A stretch of 64,000 nucleotides of DNA from Thermocoleostomius sinensis A174 (lineage in GTDB: Bacteria; Cyanobacteriota; Cyanobacteriia; Elainellales; Elainellaceae), in contig NZ_CP113797.1 in assembly GCF_026802175.1 (NCBI RefSeq), forward strand, positions 2,519,026 through 2,583,025, written 5' to 3'. Positions 42,486 through 53,926 of this stretch are shown piece by piece. A program made the position numbers and the translations under genes. A model generated the notes under the pieces. That model was not told the origin of the DNA and did not search any database. It saw nothing but the letters and a program-made list of their open reading frames with translations. Position 1 is the first letter of the stretch, and each line of letters begins with the position of its first letter.

Positions 42486-43817
42486 CTACGAATCAGCTTC
42501 TCTCAAACGACGTTGCCACTCCTCATCAATTGCATCCGCTTGCTGCAATTCCTGTTCTGTTAAATCTCGCTCAGTTGTATACGCTAAATTCGCTTCATCA
42601 ATTACGGTAGTTGCTACAAACTGTCGCGCAAAGGCAATTTTTTGTTTCACCTCATCACCCGCCTGACTCAAAACGACGGCTCGCTCCTGCCGCTGCTGAT
42701 TACGAGCTTCGATCGCCCGATTCCGCCACTGAATCCAAAAATAGCGAACTAGAGGAATCGCTAAAAACGCAATGCCATAGGCGAGCAGAATCCAGTAGAT
42801 TCCTGAAACAAACGCGACTAAACCACCCAATTCAGCCGCGATCGCCCCATCGCCCAATAGCCGAGCCAGCACCAACGCACCAATTAAATTACCCCCCCCC
42901 AGCCCGATCGCGCCAATCACTTGACCACTACTGGCTTGGCTAAAGCGCCACGGTAACTCGCGCAAATAGGCAGCAACAGGTTGTGGTTTTCGCTGAGCAG
43001 CCGTAACTTGCAATTCTGGAAAATGATAGATGATCTGTCCGGTTGGGCTAACTTCAGGGCGTCCATTAAAGTGAGATAAGACTGGCAGCATAGCGTCGTC
43101 TTGATCCTGAAAGGTGCCCTGCTTAACTGTATCCAAGTAAGGCATAATTTGTTCTGCCACCGCGACGCCACCATTGTTACGAATGACTGTCGCGATTGTC
43201 TGCCAGCGGCGCTCTTCCAAATTGGCATTGGGGTTGCCGTCACCAAACAAGAAAGAGTAGATGCCTTCTAGAAAATTTAGGTTTGTTTCGGCTGATTGCC
43301 CTGGCGCACGACGGGTGGTGTATGATCTGCGTCGCCGCGAATTTGGAGTAAAGAACCAGTACCAATCGGGGCCAAACCAAAGCCACGGCATATAGCCGCC
43401 TCCGCCTCCCGAATGCCCTCTACTACCTGATCCCCCTCCGCTATCGCTGTCGCTAGCACTAAGAGCAATCATGATTGCAATAATGGCGATCGAAATCAGG
43501 ATAATGGAAGCAATCAGCAAAATGCCAAAGGAAATCCGAATGAGATAAAACAAAATGCCCCAAACTTTGCTCCAGGCTTCTTTGAACCGCAATTGCCAGT
43601 ACTTATTACGAAGAATCGTGCGAAAATTTTTGGGAAAGCGGTAAGCAATTTCCCCCGATTCAGCAACCTGAAGATGCCCGCCTGCCTCAGAGGCCAAGGC
43701 TAGCAAATCTCGTTCAGCAATCTTAATATCTAAACCCGCTTGTGAGGCAACATCCCCAATCGTGACGCGGTAATCAAGCGCTTCAACGGCTTTCAAAATA
43801 GCAGAGTTAGGAGCCAT
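42486..43817 (-). CDS. Conserved membrane protein of cyanobacteria, unknown function
   Basis: 443 residues. The N-terminal 80 residues look winged-helix-like (SAILKAVEALDYRVTIGDVA, IAYRFPKNFRTIL). A membrane helix (ILFYLIRISFGILLIASIIL) comes next, then a Ser/Gly-rich and aromatic linker (SDSDSGGGSGSRGHSGGGGG, PWLWFGPDWYWFFTP). A second winged-helix-like block follows (VAEQIMPYL, GQIIYHFPELQV), then two or three helices (LIGALVLARLLG, LGGLVAFVSGIYWILLAYGI) and a charged tail. Related proteins occur in cyanobacteria and, I believe, plant plastids. The role is unknown. Confidence 0.7.
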   Translation of the reverse strand: MAPNSAILKAVEALDYRVTIGDVASQAGLDIKIAERDLLALASEAGGHLQVAESGEIAYRFPKNFRTILRNKYWQLRFKEAWSKVWGILFYLIRISFGILLIASIILISIAIIAIMIALSASDSDSGGGSGSRGHSGGGGGYMPWLWFGPDWYWFFTPNSRRRRSYTTRRAPGQSAETNLNFLEGIYSFLFGDGNPNANLEERRWQTIATVIRNNGGVAVAEQIMPYLDTVKQGTFQDQDDAMLPVLSHFNGRPEVSPTGQIIYHFPELQVTAAQRKPQPVAAYLRELPWRFSQASSGQVIGAIGLGGGNLIGALVLARLLGDGAIAAELGGLVAFVSGIYWILLAYGIAFLAIPLVRYFWIQWRNRAIEARNQQRQERAVVLSQAGDEVKQKIAFARQFVATTVIDEANLAYTTERDLTEQELQQADAIDEEWQRRLREADS

Positions 43818-44962: not shown

Positions 44963-45742
44963 CTAAAACTGCCGACGCGAGAAAATTCCAACCGTCAAGG
45001 TCAGCAACAAGAGGGTGTAGAGCAGCCCGTAGCCAGCATGACTCAAAAGTTCGGCAGGAGGTGGCAACATCTCCATGCCATAAACTGCCTGGTTTTTGAG
45101 ATTTAACCGTGATAAATCAGGCAAGAGCAGAAACAGAACTTCTGTGATTTGGTGCAATTCAGCGTTATCAGTCAAAGCACCGATCGATAATAAGTCGCGA
45201 CTGAGGTGCCCGACGCAATAGATAGCGATTGTTAGCATGGTTGCCAACAGTGAACTGGTCAACACACCAAACAACAGAGCAACTGCCGCAACTAATGCTA
45301 GTTCCAGGATTTGAAACAGGGCAGATAAGAGGACACTGGCGATCGAAACTGGAATTTGCTTTGCTGTCAAAATGCCTATATAAATGGCTGTCATCGCCAG
45401 TACTAACACAGCCAATACGGCGGTGAGGCCCCAATGTTTGCCTACAATGAATTCACTGCGGCTAACAGGTTTTGCAATCATCGCATAGACGGTTCGCTTT
45501 TCAATTTCTCGGTTAACTAACCCAGTGCCGACAAAGGCAGCAACCGCCAAGCCCAGCACCCCGATCGCCGCCAGACCCACATCTAAAATCATTTGCTCTT
45601 CTGCACTGGCCGCCACTTCCGGCAGCAACGCGACTGCCACTACCATCACTGTCGCAAAGAAAACCAGTAGATATAACGCGCGATCGCGAATCACCTCGCG
45701 AAATACATTGGCAGCAATGACACGGGTGCGATTGAGGTTCAT
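44963..45742 (-). CDS. fraE: ABC-2 type permease, FraE-like septal junction protein
   Basis: 259 residues from ATG 45742 (MNLNRTRVIAANVFREVIRD); the longer frame to 45784 adds unrelated residues. Six membrane helices are visible (ALYLLVFFATVMVVAVALL, AAIGVLGLAVAAFVGTGLV, LTAVLAVLVLAMTAIYIGIL, SVLLSALFQILELALVAAVA, LATMLTIAIYCVGHL, LLYTLLLLTLTVGIFS). VNREIEKRTVYAMIAKPVSR is an ABC-2 motif. It follows the fraC- and fraD-like genes in the order known from Anabaena, where FraE is required for filament integrity. A 124-bp gap with a pyrimidine-rich tract separates it from fraD. No partner ATPase gene is adjacent. Confidence 0.82.
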   Translation of the reverse strand: MNLNRTRVIAANVFREVIRDRALYLLVFFATVMVVAVALLPEVAASAEEQMILDVGLAAIGVLGLAVAAFVGTGLVNREIEKRTVYAMIAKPVSRSEFIVGKHWGLTAVLAVLVLAMTAIYIGILTAKQIPVSIASVLLSALFQILELALVAAVALLFGVLTSSLLATMLTIAIYCVGHLSRDLLSIGALTDNAELHQITEVLFLLLPDLSRLNLKNQAVYGMEMLPPPAELLSHAGYGLLYTLLLLTLTVGIFSRRQF

Positions 45743-45866
45743 GGTGGTTGAGGGATAGGGAGTCGAGAGTGTAGAGTTGATCATTCCTCCGTTCCTTTTA
45801 TCTTTCCCCTTCTCTCCTTCCTGCTTTCATCCTTTGTTTTTCTGCTTTCTCTACTTACTTTCTTTA

Positions 45867-46991
45867 CTACTCAATAATGTCATCGGGGTTGCGTTGAGGG
45901 TCACGCCGCCTGAAGGGAGAGGTGACGGGGTTACAGTTCATCACGTAAGCAGAGCCGGAGCCAACGGGGGCGTTAGGAGCAACGGCGAGGGGCGATCGCT
46001 GGATATAGCAAACTTTATTCAAAATATAGCCTTCAGGACGAGAGCTAGGGCCACTCCACACAGCTTGCAATTCCAGCACATCATCGGGGGGCACCTCTCC
46101 GGGTATGGCGTCTCTGAAGGAGGCATTCAGTCGCCAAAACAAACTTTCTTGTGCTCGGGGAGCATCTTCATAGACGGTCTCGATCGCTTCAGCTTCAAAC
46201 CGTGCAATATCGGCTGGAATATCGCGTAACCGTCGCTGTACATCAATCCACGATCGACCGTTGAGATCCTGTCGAATCAGTTCTTCGGTAGTGTCTAGTA
46301 AGTCGATGCCACGAGAGTCGGGCGAATCATCAAAATCGAGATCGGGACCAACGCGGACAACGAAGGCACTGTTGCTGAAGTCATCGCCTCGCACTGTTGG
46401 ATAGCGCGCCAGCAGGTTTTGCAGCAAGAAATGAAACTGAAACCAACAGCTAAACAGAAACCCCAAGAGCGTTAAAATCACCAGATCTTGCCGAACTTCA
46501 GCGTCTTTGGGAACTCGCAGTAGTGGTTCTAGCCCAGGATTGAGGATGCGCGGCAACCAGGCCACACCCACCGAAATAATCGGCCAACTGACTAAAGCCG
46601 TTGGAATATCGCGGATGAATAAACGATTGCTAAGCAGCGCCAGACAGATCAAGGCACCGGTAATCCAAGGACCAATGTTGATTTTTAGCTTTAAACCTGG
46701 AACTTGTGGTTTTTTCTTGTCATCTTTGTCGTCTAGGAAGAACCAATCTACACCAATGATTAGAAAAAACCAAGCATATAGTGTCACGAATTGGCGCAGC
46801 ATGGGCGATCGAATCAAGAACTGCACCAGCCAGCCCAGCAAACTAAGGGATAAAGCGACCTGCCATGAGAACCAGCGAATCGATTGAATACTCTTAATTT
46901 GCTCGTTGCCACGTTTAGAAAGGCTAGATAGCCAGGTAGCCAGCAGGTCGATGAAAAAAAGTTTTTTGAGAAAATTGAAGAAACCTTTCAC
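45867..46991 (-). CDS. fraD: FraD-like septal junction membrane protein
   Basis: 374 residues from GTG 46991, whose GTGA overlaps the fraC stop codon TGA, a sign of translational coupling; the ATG at 47060 would overlap fraC by 73 bp. Five membrane helices lie in residues 30-200 (FSWQVALSLSLLGWLVQFLI, FVTLYAWFFLIIGVDWFFL, IGPWITGALICLALL, LVSWPIISVGVAWLP, LVILTLLGFLFSCWFQF). A periplasmic domain of about 170 residues follows (NSAFVVRVGPDLDFDDSPDS..YILNKVCYIQRS). The topology and place after fraC match FraD (DUF5357), a component of cell-cell channels in filamentous cyanobacteria. Confidence 0.82.
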   Translation of the reverse strand: MKGFFNFLKKLFFIDLLATWLSSLSKRGNEQIKSIQSIRWFSWQVALSLSLLGWLVQFLIRSPMLRQFVTLYAWFFLIIGVDWFFLDDKDDKKKPQVPGLKLKINIGPWITGALICLALLSNRLFIRDIPTALVSWPIISVGVAWLPRILNPGLEPLLRVPKDAEVRQDLVILTLLGFLFSCWFQFHFLLQNLLARYPTVRGDDFSNSAFVVRVGPDLDFDDSPDSRGIDLLDTTEELIRQDLNGRSWIDVQRRLRDIPADIARFEAEAIETVYEDAPRAQESLFWRLNASFRDAIPGEVPPDDVLELQAVWSGPSSRPEGYILNKVCYIQRSPLAVAPNAPVGSGSAYVMNCNPVTSPFRRRDPQRNPDDIIE

Positions 46992-47620
46992 AGCAAGTTC
47001 AGAGTAGATTGGAATGCAAAGCGCAGAATCAAGAGAGCCGAAATAGCACTGAAGCTCCAAGCATTAGCCGACAAGACAGCCCTTGCCTGTGCGCGTCTGG
47101 ACAATCGTTCGGAAGGAACTTTTTCTGGTGGTTCGACATAGCGCATATCTTGAATTACCCTTCGAGGTGAAGGATTGGTTTTGATAGGAGTTTCGGCAAG
47201 TTCTTCCGCAGTTTTTTTGTCTTCTTTTTTAGACCCTGCTTCTAGCAGCCATCTCAGCCCAATGAGACCGCTTTGTTTAATAGCAAAGCTGGCAAAAAAC
47301 ATGATCAGACTTAACAGAATTAGGGTTGTGGCTGTTTCGCTCGTCCACCGATCAAAGAAAATAAACTGCACCAGGTTCGTTTCAAACCGAGTCGTCCAGG
47401 CAGACGGCAAGGCTGTTGCAATTCCATAGAAAACGAAGAAGAATAGCCAACCCACAACAGTACAGAGGAGGTTAATGGAAGTAGCATACTGAATGCTCTG
47501 CTTCGGTGTAGGCGGAGGATCGAGCAAGCGATAGAGTACCGTGGCTTCGATCGCAATGGCAATCAACAAAAACACGCTTTGGTAGAGAACAGTCCGCAGG
47601 GGCAAGACATTGGAAACCAT
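46988..47620 (-). CDS. fraC: FraC-like filament integrity protein
   Basis: 210 residues. The start MVSNVLPLRTVLYQSVFLLI resembles FraC (MSNVLPLR..). Membrane helices lie near 12-33, 45-68, 93-115 and 185-205. A charged loop of about 60 residues (EAGSKKEDKKTAEELAETP..) precedes the last helix. FraC is needed with FraD for intact filaments and intercellular transfer in Anabaena. AGGA lies 8-11 bases before the start. It is first in the fraC-fraD-fraE operon. Confidence 0.8.
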   Translation of the reverse strand: MVSNVLPLRTVLYQSVFLLIAIAIEATVLYRLLDPPPTPKQSIQYATSINLLCTVVGWLFFFVFYGIATALPSAWTTRFETNLVQFIFFDRWTSETATTLILLSLIMFFASFAIKQSGLIGLRWLLEAGSKKEDKKTAEELAETPIKTNPSPRRVIQDMRYVEPPEKVPSERLSRRAQARAVLSANAWSFSAISALLILRFAFQSTLNLL

Positions 47621-47935
47621 TCGGATTTTTCCTATCTAATCAAACTCACTCAAGACGCTGGCTGCAATCAATGGTTCTGTCAAACAACATTCAACGATCG
47701 CCGCTAAACGATCGCTGCTAAACCCTAAGGCTAGAGGAATAATGGAGATAATCTGTATGAATCATGCTATCGATAGGGGTAAGACACGATATAAAGGGTA
47801 ACGTATAGAATCTAAACCGTAAAAGTCGTTTTATACTTTAGCTCTCAGCTAGGTAAACCTGACAATCGAGACGGATAGCCTTCCTTTGGTAACTGGTTGT
47901 TTACTCATAACTCGTTCACTCACAATCTTAGATCG
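47621..47935. other. Divergent promoter region between fraC and the CobO-like gene
   Basis: 315 bp, AT-rich, with a CGATCG-rich start (AACGATCGCCGCTAAACGATCG near 47692-47715, quoted loosely). No riboswitch was recognised; in particular I do not see a cobalamin box. Confidence 0.35.
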
Positions 47936-49069
47936 ATGACAAGAACTGGTGTTGGGATTCGGACTGCTCAAGCCCGCGCAGAGCGATTGATTGGTCAAAT
48001 TCATGTCTATGATGGAGCCGGAAAAGGAAAGTCACAAGCGGCGTTGGGGGTGGTGTTGCGATCGATCGGTTTGGGCATTCATACTGGCTGCCAAACGCGG
48101 GTGTTATTGTTACGTTTTTTGAAGGGTCCAGGTCGCACTTATGATGAAGACGCAGCGATCGAAGCATTGCGGCGGGGTTTTCCGCACTTAATCGATCAGG
48201 TTCGCACCGGGCGTGCCGAGTTTTTTGGACCTGATGAAATCACTCGCTTTGACCGCATTGAAGCCCAGCGGGGTTGGGATGTGGCTAAGGGAGCAATCGC
48301 CTCTGGGTTGTACTCGGTGGTGGTGCTAGATGAATTGAATCCAGTGTTAGATTTAGGTTTACTACCTGTCGATGAAGTAGTGCAAACGCTGAAACACAAG
48401 CCCGATGAACTAGAAATTATTGCCACTGGACGGGGCGCACCACAGTCGCTCCTAGAAATTGCAGATTTGCATTCTGAGATGAAGCCACAGCACCACCCCC
48501 ACGCCGTGGCTCATGGATTAGAGGGAATTGAAATCTATACCGGAGATGGCAAAGGTAAATCAACCAGCGCCTTAGGTAAAACCCTGCAAGCGATCGGTAA
48601 GGGCATTAGCCAGGATAAATCCCATCGGGTGTTAATTCTACAGTGGCTTAAGGGTGGTTCGGGTTACACCGAAGATGCAGCCATTGCAGCATTACGACAA
48701 AGCTACCCCAATTTGGTTGATCACCAGCGCTGTGGTCGAGATGCGATTGTCTGGCGGGGGCAACAGCAAGAATTAGATTATGTGGAGGCAGAACGAGGAT
48801 GGGAGATTGCCCGGGCGGCGATCGCCTCTGGCATGTACAAAACTATCATGCTCGATGAACTCAACCCTACGGTCGATCTAGAGCTTTTGCCACAGGAACC
48901 AATCATTCAAGCCCTCTTGCGCAAACCCCGGGATACAGAGATTCTGATTACGGGACGCTGCAAGCATCCGCCTGCTTATTTTGATTTAGCCAGCACCCAC
49001 TCTGAAGTCTATTGCCATAAACACTATGCCGAGAAAGGCATTCATCTCAAGCGAGGAGTCGATTTCTAG
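47936..49069 (+). CDS. Duplicated CobO/BtuR-type P-loop protein
   Basis: 377 residues from ATG 47936. Two tandem homologous halves each resemble cob(I)yrinic acid a,c-diamide adenosyltransferase. The first has IHVYDGAGKGKSQAALG, VLDELNPVLDLGLL and IIATGRGAP. The second has IEIYTGDGKGKSTSALG, MLDELNPTVDLELL and ILITGRCKHPP, followed by the HSEVYCHKHYAEKGI end. Single-domain enzymes have about 200 residues. The duplicated form is found in cyanobacteria. Both P-loops look intact. The expected role is cobalamin adenosylation, but the second half may have changed function. Confidence 0.82.
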   Translation: MTRTGVGIRTAQARAERLIGQIHVYDGAGKGKSQAALGVVLRSIGLGIHTGCQTRVLLLRFLKGPGRTYDEDAAIEALRRGFPHLIDQVRTGRAEFFGPDEITRFDRIEAQRGWDVAKGAIASGLYSVVVLDELNPVLDLGLLPVDEVVQTLKHKPDELEIIATGRGAPQSLLEIADLHSEMKPQHHPHAVAHGLEGIEIYTGDGKGKSTSALGKTLQAIGKGISQDKSHRVLILQWLKGGSGYTEDAAIAALRQSYPNLVDHQRCGRDAIVWRGQQQELDYVEAERGWEIARAAIASGMYKTIMLDELNPTVDLELLPQEPIIQALLRKPRDTEILITGRCKHPPAYFDLASTHSEVYCHKHYAEKGIHLKRGVDF

Positions 49070-50740: not shown

Positions 50741-53700
50741 CTATAGTGTGGCTAACTTCGCTCTCAAAATTTCTGATTGTGTTTCGGCTTCCGCCAAGGC
50801 ATCCCTTGCACCCTGAACTACATCGGCTGGCGCTTTATCGACAAACTTGGAGTTGCTGAGTCGTTGAGAAAGCGCTTGAACCTCTGCTTCTACTTTAGCT
50901 AAATCTCTCTGTAGTTTAGATCGAAGTGCCTCCACATCGACAACTCCCGCTAGCGGAATTGCCACTTGTACCGTACCAACCACACCTACGATTTGTTGTT
51001 CACGCTGATTGGATGGATTGGGAGTATCAGAGGGAGCAAACCCGATCGCCTCTGTCGCTGTCCGAGTAGTAGGCGGCAACAAAGAGGTTGAAGATGAAGC
51101 GGCTAGCGCTTGACGTTGCCGGATTTGGTGCTGTAATTGCCCCAGGGTTTGGCTCAACTGTTGACGATCGGTGGCAAACAACAGGTGACGGCGGACAAAC
51201 CAGAGCGTATAGCCAACGCCAATCAGTTTAAATAGGGACGGGATCAACAGCAGGTGATTAACGGTACCAACGATCGCAAGCAGAATTTTGGCGATGACCA
51301 AGATCCCGAACAGCAGGGCCAGCGTTATCCCAGCTTTGGTGTAAGTGCTGGATTGCATAGAGGCCGTTGCAGACACTGGGTACGCCTCCAGGGACTCCAT
51401 TGTTGCAGGAGTCATGACCACCGATTCAGGGACAGGACCAGTGACAGTCATAGAGGCGGGCGGGGTTTCAGGCACGCTGATAGTCAAATGTTCAACTTTG
51501 GCCAGGTCTTGAATATACGATTGTCCAGCCGTAAGAATCTGACGCTCACGATCGTTCTCGGTTTGCAACGAGGCCTTGATTTTAGCTCCAGTTTTAATAT
51601 CCGCTTCGGCTCGCAAATTGCGAATGGTGCGAATAGTGCCAATCAACAACTCGAAGTCTTGCTCTAGAGAGGGATCGATCAGGCTCTCATCGGCTTCAGG
51701 ATAGGATTGTATAGCCAAGCACTCCGGACTTGCTTCATCTTTCTGAGTCAGCGTGTGCCATACTTCTTCGGTGATGTGCGGCATGAACGGGTGCAGTAAC
51801 CGCAGCGTTCCCTCTAACACAAAAGCCAGCGTTTGCTGTGCCACTCGCCGTGAAGGAGAACCAGACGATTGCAGGCGCGATTTTGCCAGTTCAATGTACC
51901 AGTCGCAAAAATCACCCCAGATAAACTCATACAGCCCCTTCGCCGCTTCGCCCAACCCGTAATGATCGATATTGTCACGAGTTTGTTTGACCACTTGATG
52001 ATAGCGCGACAAGATCCAGCGATCGGCCAGTTCCAACGCATCACGTTCGGGACTTCCTAGCTGTTCTGGAGTTTGCCCATCCAGGTTCATCATCACGAAG
52101 CGAGAGGCATTCCACAGCTTATTGGTGAAGTTGCGCGACGCTTCCACCGAGGCAGACTCCTCGGTTTTACGGTTGTACTCTAGGCGAATATCTTGCCCCG
52201 CCCCCACCACTTCTTTCACCAGCGTATAGCGCAGCGCATCTGTGCCATATTTGTTGATGAGCAGCAGCGGATCAATGCCGTTATTGGCCGATTTCGACAT
52301 TTTCTTATTGTTTTCATCCCGCACCAGACCGTGAATATATACCGATTTGAACGGCATCTGTCCAGTGAAGTGGCCCGCCATCATTGTCATGCGCGCCACC
52401 CAGAAAAAGATAATGTCAAACCCCGTCACTAGCATGGTCGTGGGGTAGTAAAACTCCAGATCGCGGGTTTGTTCGGGCCAGCCCATCGTCGAGAACGGCC
52501 ACAGCCCCGACGAGTACCAAGTGTCCAATACATCCGGGTCTTGCTGAAGCTGCACGGTTTCCCCAAATTGCGATCGAGCTTTTGCCCAGGCTTCGGTTTC
52601 ATTGGCAGCCACAATAAATGGGGTATTATCAGTGACCTCACCATTTGTTTCACTGATGGCATACCAAGCTGGAATTTGATGCCCCCACCAAAGCTGGCGA
52701 GAAATGCACCAATCGCGCAGATTCACCAGCCAATCGCGGTACACCTTCGTCCAGCGTTCCGGCACAAACAACGGCTCCGCTCTGTTGTCGAGAAAATCCA
52801 GGGCCCGATCGGCCAGCGGACGAATTTTAACAAACCACTGGGTAGACAGCAGCGGCTCTACCGGAACTTTGCCCCGATCGCTGTAGGGAACCGAATGTTT
52901 GTAGGGTTCAATTTTGGCGACAAGTCCTTCCTCTTCCAGACGCTTGACCACATTGCGCCGTGCCTCAAACCGATCTTGCCCCTGGAATGGCCCTGCCTGT
53001 TCGTTCATTGTGCCGTCTTTGTTCATGATGGTGATGAACGGCAGATCGTGGCGCTTGCCCATCTCAAAATCATTGGGGTCGTGAGCCGGGGTCACCTTAA
53101 CGCAACCCGTACCAAAGCTTGCATCTACATATTCGTCAGCAATGATAGGAATAGTGCGATCGACGATTGGCAGAGTCACCGTTTTGCCGATCAAATGTTG
53201 ATAGCGATCGTCCTTGGGGTTCACCGCCACAGCCGTATCACCCAGCATCGTCTCCGGGCGCGTTGTTGCCACCTCCACAAACCCAGAACCATCAGTCAGC
53301 GGATAACGAAAATGCCACAAGCTCCCATCTACTTCTTTGGTTTCCACCTCCAAGTCTGACACTGCCGACTGACTAGCCGGACACCAGTTGACCAGGTAGT
53401 TGCCCCGATAGATTAAGCCTTCGTTGTAAAGCTGAATGAAGGAATGGATTACCGCCTTAGACAAGCCTTCATCCATCGTGAACCGTTCACGAGTCCAGTC
53501 CACCGATAACCCCAGCCGCCGCAACTGTCCAACAATCGTTCCGCCTGATTCTTCCTTCCACTGCCAAGCGCGAGATAAGTAGGCCTCGCGCCCCACATCC
53601 TGACGCTTCTTCCCCTGAGACTGAAGTTCTCGATCTAAGATAGTACTAACGGCAATGCTAGCGTGATCGGTACCTGGTAACCACAGCGTGTTGAGTCCTT

Positions 53701-53926
53701 TCATCCGGTGGTAGCGGACAAAGGCATCTATCAGCGAATGCTCGAAAGCGTGCCCCATGTGCAAGCTACCCGTGACGTTGGGCGGTGGAATCACGACGCA
53801 ATAGGGTTCGCCACCGCGATCGGGATCGGCCTTGAATACCTGATGGGCTTCCCAGTAGCGTTGCCATTTAGCTTCGGTCAGTGAAGGGTCGTATTGACTT
53901 GCGAGGGTGGGGATGGTTGCCGTCAT
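50741..53926 (-). CDS. valS: Valyl-tRNA synthetase with CAAD-type membrane insertion
   Basis: 1061 residues, against about 900 in most bacteria. Class I signatures are [20 protein letters not shown] (HMGH) and [10 protein letters not shown] (about residue 540). The editing (CP1) domain has [15 protein letters not shown], and the anticodon-binding domain has [20 protein letters not shown]. Around residues 824-960, within the C-terminal part, is an extra segment with two hydrophobic helices ([20 protein letters not shown] and [20 protein letters not shown]). This is the form of the CAAD domain found in some cyanobacterial aminoacyl-tRNA synthetases, which anchors them to thylakoids. A C-terminal coiled coil ([19 protein letters not shown]) completes the protein. 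Confidence 0.93.

Follow-up and report, generated by a model that had tools for sequence, protein, structure and literature searches.

The 64,000-nucleotide stretch of Thermocoleostomius sinensis A174 analysed here (the window) carries three consecutive membrane-protein genes on its minus strand (47620-44963), which raises the question whether they are the fraC-fraD-fraE operon with which filamentous cyanobacteria make cell-to-cell channels and what such an operon says about its host. An earlier note on this DNA had read them as a fraC-fraD-fraE-like operon matching that of Anabaena, and as a sign of a filamentous organism with septal junctions. The system of reference is fraC-fraD-fraE (alr2392-alr2394) of Anabaena/Nostoc sp. 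PCC 7120. We are highly confident that the three genes form the fraC-fraD-fraE operon, and that their host is a filamentous cyanobacterium, probably without heterocysts, that stands near Elainella, Oculatella and Drouetiella; the role of the operon in septal junctions would resemble the one known from Anabaena, on which this part of the reading draws.

The operon and its three proteins

All three genes were found where the earlier note had placed them, in the order fraC, fraD, fraE and on one strand (Table 1). The profile search for FraC and DUF5357 that it had proposed returned matches above the curated cut-offs for both proteins, rather than the lack of matches that it had named as speaking against its reading. 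FraC reaches 152.1 bits against PF24301 (cut-off 27, E 2.1e-44) and 190.2 bits against the NCBIfam model NF045624 (cut-off 100), and FraD reaches 187.7 bits against PF17310/DUF5357 (cut-off 25, E 2.7e-55), the match running over positions 19-295 of the 322 in the profile and covering both the membrane and the periplasmic part. FraE scores 55.1 bits against the ABC-2 profile PF12679 (cut-off 27.2); a FraE-specific profile was not found. On the NCBIfam model for septal-junction FraD, NF037953, the protein obtains 155 bits, well below the cut-off of 400, and it therefore falls outside this NCBI subfamily; three more FraD proteins, all of them short forms, were scanned on the same model and obtain 38-55 bits.

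Table 1. Features of the fraC-fraD-fraE locus in the window
Feature	Position	Strand	Description	Basis
fraC	46988..47620	-	210 aa; four predicted membrane segments	PF24301, NF045624; hydropathy; alignment A4
GTGA overlap	46988..46991	-	GTG start of fraD over TGA stop of fraC	read from sequence
fraD (DUF5357)	45867..46991	-	374 aa, GTG start; five-helix membrane half and periplasmic half	PF17310; AlphaFold model
fraD membrane half	46404..46865	-	predicted helices at residues 43-59, 63-86, 107-121, 129-150, 164-196	model m5df7235c78ac and hydropathy
fraD periplasmic half	45867..46331	-	residues 221 to end; predicted helices, then four-stranded sheet	domain model meb79bffc530b
C328 codon of FraD	46008..46010	-	invariant cysteine	38 long FraD proteins
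C353 codon of FraD	45933..45935	-	invariant cysteine	38 long FraD proteins
fraE	44963..45742	-	259 aa, ABC-2 type permease	PF12679; identity to relatives

The predicted topologies agree with those given in the earlier note (four segments for FraC, five plus a separate domain for FraD, and an ABC-2 permease for FraE), with the count for FraD depending on the hydropathy threshold: five segments at the lower threshold and three at the stricter one. The scan gives five to six segments for FraE, and in FraC the third and fourth segments are separated by a long charged loop (residues 115-180). Amino acid identity to relatives amounts to 28-60% for FraC (alignment A4), 24-52% for FraD among the aligned proteins and 47-64% for FraE against 12 FraE proteins (68% for the best named relative), and in most of the FraE relatives the gene adjoins fraCD. 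The open reading frame of fraE as listed opens at 45784, 14 codons earlier than the start adopted here, which is the second ATG and the start used in relatives. A gap of 124 bases separates fraD from fraE, and no ATPase gene is present in the operon.

In gene order, protein families and the five-helix plus periplasmic build of FraD, the locus is like fraCDE of Anabaena/Nostoc sp. PCC 7120, and its FraD also has in common with that of Nostoc a W-x-G-P stretch and the cysteine that closes a peptide used to raise antibodies. It differs from the PCC 7120 operon in its low sequence identity, and from most Nostoc-type loci in a FraC that is about 30 residues longer and has a longer charged loop; this long FraC is common to the window, to Filamentous cyanobacterium CCP2 (L097) and to Elainella saxicola (L100).

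The overlap of fraC and fraD by four bases (GTGA), which the earlier note had counted among the resemblances to the Anabaena operon, is real, but as a sign of kinship with that operon it has to be given up. The family taken here as that of the heterocyst formers (f6), inside which the named Nostoc locus falls in the FraE tree, has a gap of 13-348 bases between the two genes in 35/35 loci and thus no overlap in any of them. Outside this family, overlapping genes occur in 10 of the 30 remaining survey loci and in 17 of the 63 named loci, a set of mixed lineages. For the gaps, each gene was taken to begin at the earliest start codon downstream of a stop, and these overlap counts are therefore upper bounds; by the same rule the window itself would show an overlap of 73 bases from a TTG, in place of which the GTG start was used. 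A later start of fraD would only widen the gaps in f6. The overlap therefore belongs to other lineages and is not a sign of the Anabaena arrangement.

The AlphaFold model of FraD, built with 38 sequences (pLDDT 81.9, pTM 0.59), predicts five membrane-length helices followed by a separate alpha/beta domain, and this periplasmic domain modelled alone (pLDDT 86.5, pTM 0.79) consists of helices and then four strands. Ten residues are invariant in 38 long FraD proteins (S50, P198, S208, G228, E282, W286, W312, G314, C328 and C353). In the full-length model the two cysteines fall on the two final strands, and they may be joined by a C328-C353 disulphide. The antibody peptide published for Nostoc FraD, IWTGPTANPRGYFLRKSC (PMC9722847), aligns with residues 311-328 of the window protein, VWSGPSSRPEGYILNKVC, with 9 of 18 positions identical, including the invariant W312, G314 and C328.

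The fold of the periplasmic half was also compared with known structures. Foldseek gave no match at E <=0.001 for the whole of FraD (best E 0.47) or for the periplasmic domain (best E 0.081), the weak matches being repeatedly to VirB8/TraE and other NTF2-like domains, while VIA-align listed the minor pilin PilX first for the periplasmic domain, with a Z of 6.8 (3.7 A over 101 residues), where a Z below 8 may mean only a common arrangement. Neither the NTF2-like nor the PilX fold reaches the level required by the respective tool, and because the two tools disagree we claim neither. VIA-align matches of the whole protein are filled by the membrane helices. A search by sequence for solved relatives yielded one chance-level match for FraD (E 0.35) and none for FraC, and our search of the open-access literature found no paper joining FraD with VirB8.

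The surroundings of the operon are ordinary: gatC and ycf3 lie to one side, and the neighbour on the opposite side is a cobalamin adenosyltransferase. This enzyme (47897-49069, plus strand) has two CobO-type domains in tandem and belongs to a known family (PRK07413). Further away, a valyl-tRNA synthetase (50741-53926, minus strand) includes a membrane domain of the CAAD type (PF14159, residues 860-935), a known cyanobacterial oddity, and a 443-aa membrane protein (42486-43817, minus strand) with a glycine/serine-rich stretch has no Pfam match at 1e-5.

Companion genes, relatives and the proposed role

The host genome, a single contig of 5,809,202 bases (5.81 Mb), was examined for sepJ, amiC and hetR, as the earlier note had suggested, and it has hetR, a SepJ homologue and AmiC-like candidates. 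HetR (299 aa) scores 585.2 bits against NF009718, above the equivalog cut-off of 489. The SepJ homologue (658 aa, G000:C1:992959-994932) is composed of an N-terminal coiled coil, a P/S/T-rich linker and a C-terminal permease with ten hydrophobic segments at 334-641, and it matches N-terminal and permease parts in 3/3 of the Nostoc/Calothrix genomes compared. A 507-aa EamA protein at about 5.175 Mb of the same contig was rejected as sepJ, its permease lying at the N-terminus; the 658-aa protein fits instead. The genome has five Amidase_3 matches, and both of the two that were examined also contain an AMIN domain, which makes them AmiC-like candidates. A profile match identifies nifH within what resembles a nifB-nifS-nifU-nifH-nifD-nifK row, the other nif names having been read from the sequences.

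As to the lifestyle of the host, the closest FraE proteins among named genomes other than the host itself are those of Filamentous cyanobacterium CCP2 (68% identity), Cyanobacteria bacterium RM1_2_2 and Elainella saxicola (66% each), followed by Leptolyngbyaceae CRU_2_3 (65%), Oculatella (64%) and Drouetiella (63%). The FraE tree, which comprises 54 rows and leaves out loci without fraE in the fetched stretch, puts the window in the neighbourhood of CCP2, Elainella, Oculatella and Drouetiella, and the valyl-tRNA synthetase of the window points to the same relatives in a comparison of 25 named genomes. Members of these three genera are filamentous and are not known to form heterocysts, and judged by its nearest named relatives the host is probably non-heterocystous as well. 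CCP2, Elainella saxicola, Drouetiella (L101) and Oculatella (L103) carry the same operon as the window, with FraE proteins 63-68% identical to its own and with a varying intergenic spacing. In a close relative from the window's own family (L096, G011), the operon is split, with fraD and fraE together at 5.50 Mb and fraC alone at 2.256 Mb.

The part played by the three proteins has been described in Anabaena. FraC is required for the placement of FraD, and cap and plug are missing in fraD mutants (PMC12096826; PMC9722847). FraD has been placed at the plug or the cap (PMC9722847; PMC12096826), perhaps as a connection between these two and the membrane and not as the plug itself (PMC12096826; PMC9722847). 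FraE has been tied to filament integrity, and one review had no localisation to give for it (PMC6463045). By analogy with Anabaena, FraC and FraD of the window would be targeted to the septum that separates sister cells, where FraC would help to position FraD. The latter would sit in the cytoplasmic membrane and hold the junction's plug and cap, with its periplasmic half facing the tube or the peptidoglycan nanopore, and FraE, an ABC-2 permease, would be required for filament integrity. Septal localisation, junction assembly and gating are thus carried over from the work on Anabaena, and nothing in the window contradicts such a role; the genes, their order, their predicted topology and the companion genes were observed in this genome itself.

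Two other readings of the same locus deserve consideration. The operon could be orthologous and yet serve mainly the integrity of the septum (cell-cell adhesion) in this lineage, with no gated, dye-permeable junctions. The divergence of the window FraD, which stays below the NCBIfam cut-off, would suit this view, as would the phenotype of Anabaena fra mutants, which not only lose exchange but also break into fragments (PMC12096826). However, both halves of FraD and its two invariant cysteines are retained, and SepJ-like and AmiC-like companions are present, and we regard this reading as improbable. Still less probable, and in our estimate very unlikely, is that the genes are a relic or a transferred operon in a non-filamentous organism. 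The relatives are known as filamentous only from record titles or general knowledge of the genera, which leaves some room for this reading, but the FraE tree groups the window with them, hetR (4.318 Mb) and the SepJ gene (0.993 Mb) lie far apart in the host genome, and FraD and SepJ are jointly missing from the five unicellular or oddly labelled genomes described below. The reading as a junction operon of a filamentous host, which the earlier note had put forward, is accordingly supported by the profiles and by the sepJ-like, amiC-like and hetR genes, the junctions themselves being inferred.

Distribution across Cyanobacteriota

The survey covered 386 genomes of the phylum, and 77 of them, from 47 of 143 genera, have FraD. 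FraC matches were obtained in 80 of the 386 at E 0.001, and the 78 genomes over the cut-off are all 77 FraD genomes plus one further (G207). In this last genome, FraC occurs without a FraD match; its assembly of 190 contigs may contain a gap. A genome of the heterocyst-former family (G087, family f6, 4.6 Mb, 99% complete) shows no match to FraC or FraD.

Around 80 named fraE loci, fraD lies within the fetched stretch in 66 and fraC together with fraD in 63. The remaining 14 are without fraC and fraD, and in two of these (L133 and L144) the locus is truncated by the end of the contig. A genome-wide search covered ten of the 14, which belong to a set of 18 named genomes. FraD was located elsewhere in the genome in four (Pegethrix, two Moorena and one Oscillatoriales) and was absent genome-wide in six (Gloeocapsa, Chroococcidiopsidaceae, Chlorogloea, a 'Tatlockia' MAG, Aliterella and the cyanobacterial MAG L141). 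The first five of these six lack a SepJ homologue, which the remaining 13 of the 18 named genomes, L141 included, possess; 12 of these 13 also have FraD. FraD and SepJ are therefore missing jointly from the same five genomes, whose names are of a unicellular type or odd. Given that FraE-like genes stand alone in genomes without FraD, FraE is no mark of junctions, whereas FraC and FraD are, and an ABC-2 permease of the FraE type probably serves for more than septal junctions. Solitary FraE homologues of this kind are L151, L154, L158, L166 and L170, which are 54-58% identical to that of the window and lie in genomes without any FraD.

The earlier note had held that the operon, in a non-heterocystous strain, would bear on how general these channels are. 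It does add another lineage, probably one without heterocysts, to those with this known junction system, but this contributes little to the generality argument, because the published record already describes FraD as kept in filamentous cyanobacteria and FraC, FraD and SepJ as missing in unicellular ones. According to these papers, FraD is conserved in filamentous cyanobacteria (PMC9722847), and no orthologues of FraC, FraD or SepJ were found in unicellular cyanobacteria (PMC12903740). The operon is an ordinary, divergent example of a known system, and its presence is what the literature leads one to expect. More useful than the operon itself is the comparison, in which FraC accompanies FraD in 77/77 genomes and FraE occurs alone in genomes devoid of FraD.

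FraD proteins without a periplasmic half

A result that was not expected, and that lies beside the original question, is the presence of short FraD proteins, the part of this work that might interest specialists. In 9 of the 77 FraD genomes (G008, G286, G045, G033, G262, G255, G157, G135 and G213; loci L080-L088), from six genera and four families, FraD comprises only 182-209 aa (e.g., L085:2969-3550 and L083:2991-3587). These operons share with the window the order fraC-fraD-fraE and the membrane half of FraD, but their FraD stops after this half. The operon is intact, with fraC and fraE flanking the short fraD in 9/9 genomes, and each of the nine likewise keeps a SepJ homologue. The periplasmic half was searched for with a profile, stop codons being read through; there was no match at E 0.1 in 9/9 of these genomes, and the domain was found in 5/5 controls. 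Among the 66 named FraD loci there is no short form, and our search of the open-access literature found no description of one.

On the FraE tree, the domain state of FraD needs four changes, and since the well-supported branches force only one of them, we do not claim several independent losses of the domain. FraD could be built of two modules, of which the periplasmic one is not essential for the fraCDE system, a proposal that we put forward tentatively and rate at somewhat below even chances. If the strains with short FraD still make septal junctions, the module recognised by the antibody would be needless for holding plug and cap, and these strains would serve as a naturally occurring deletion series in the best-placed protein of the septal junction. 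The role of the periplasmic half is thereby open to direct testing by comparison of existing strains. Separately, one locus (L098) has its FraD in two frames.
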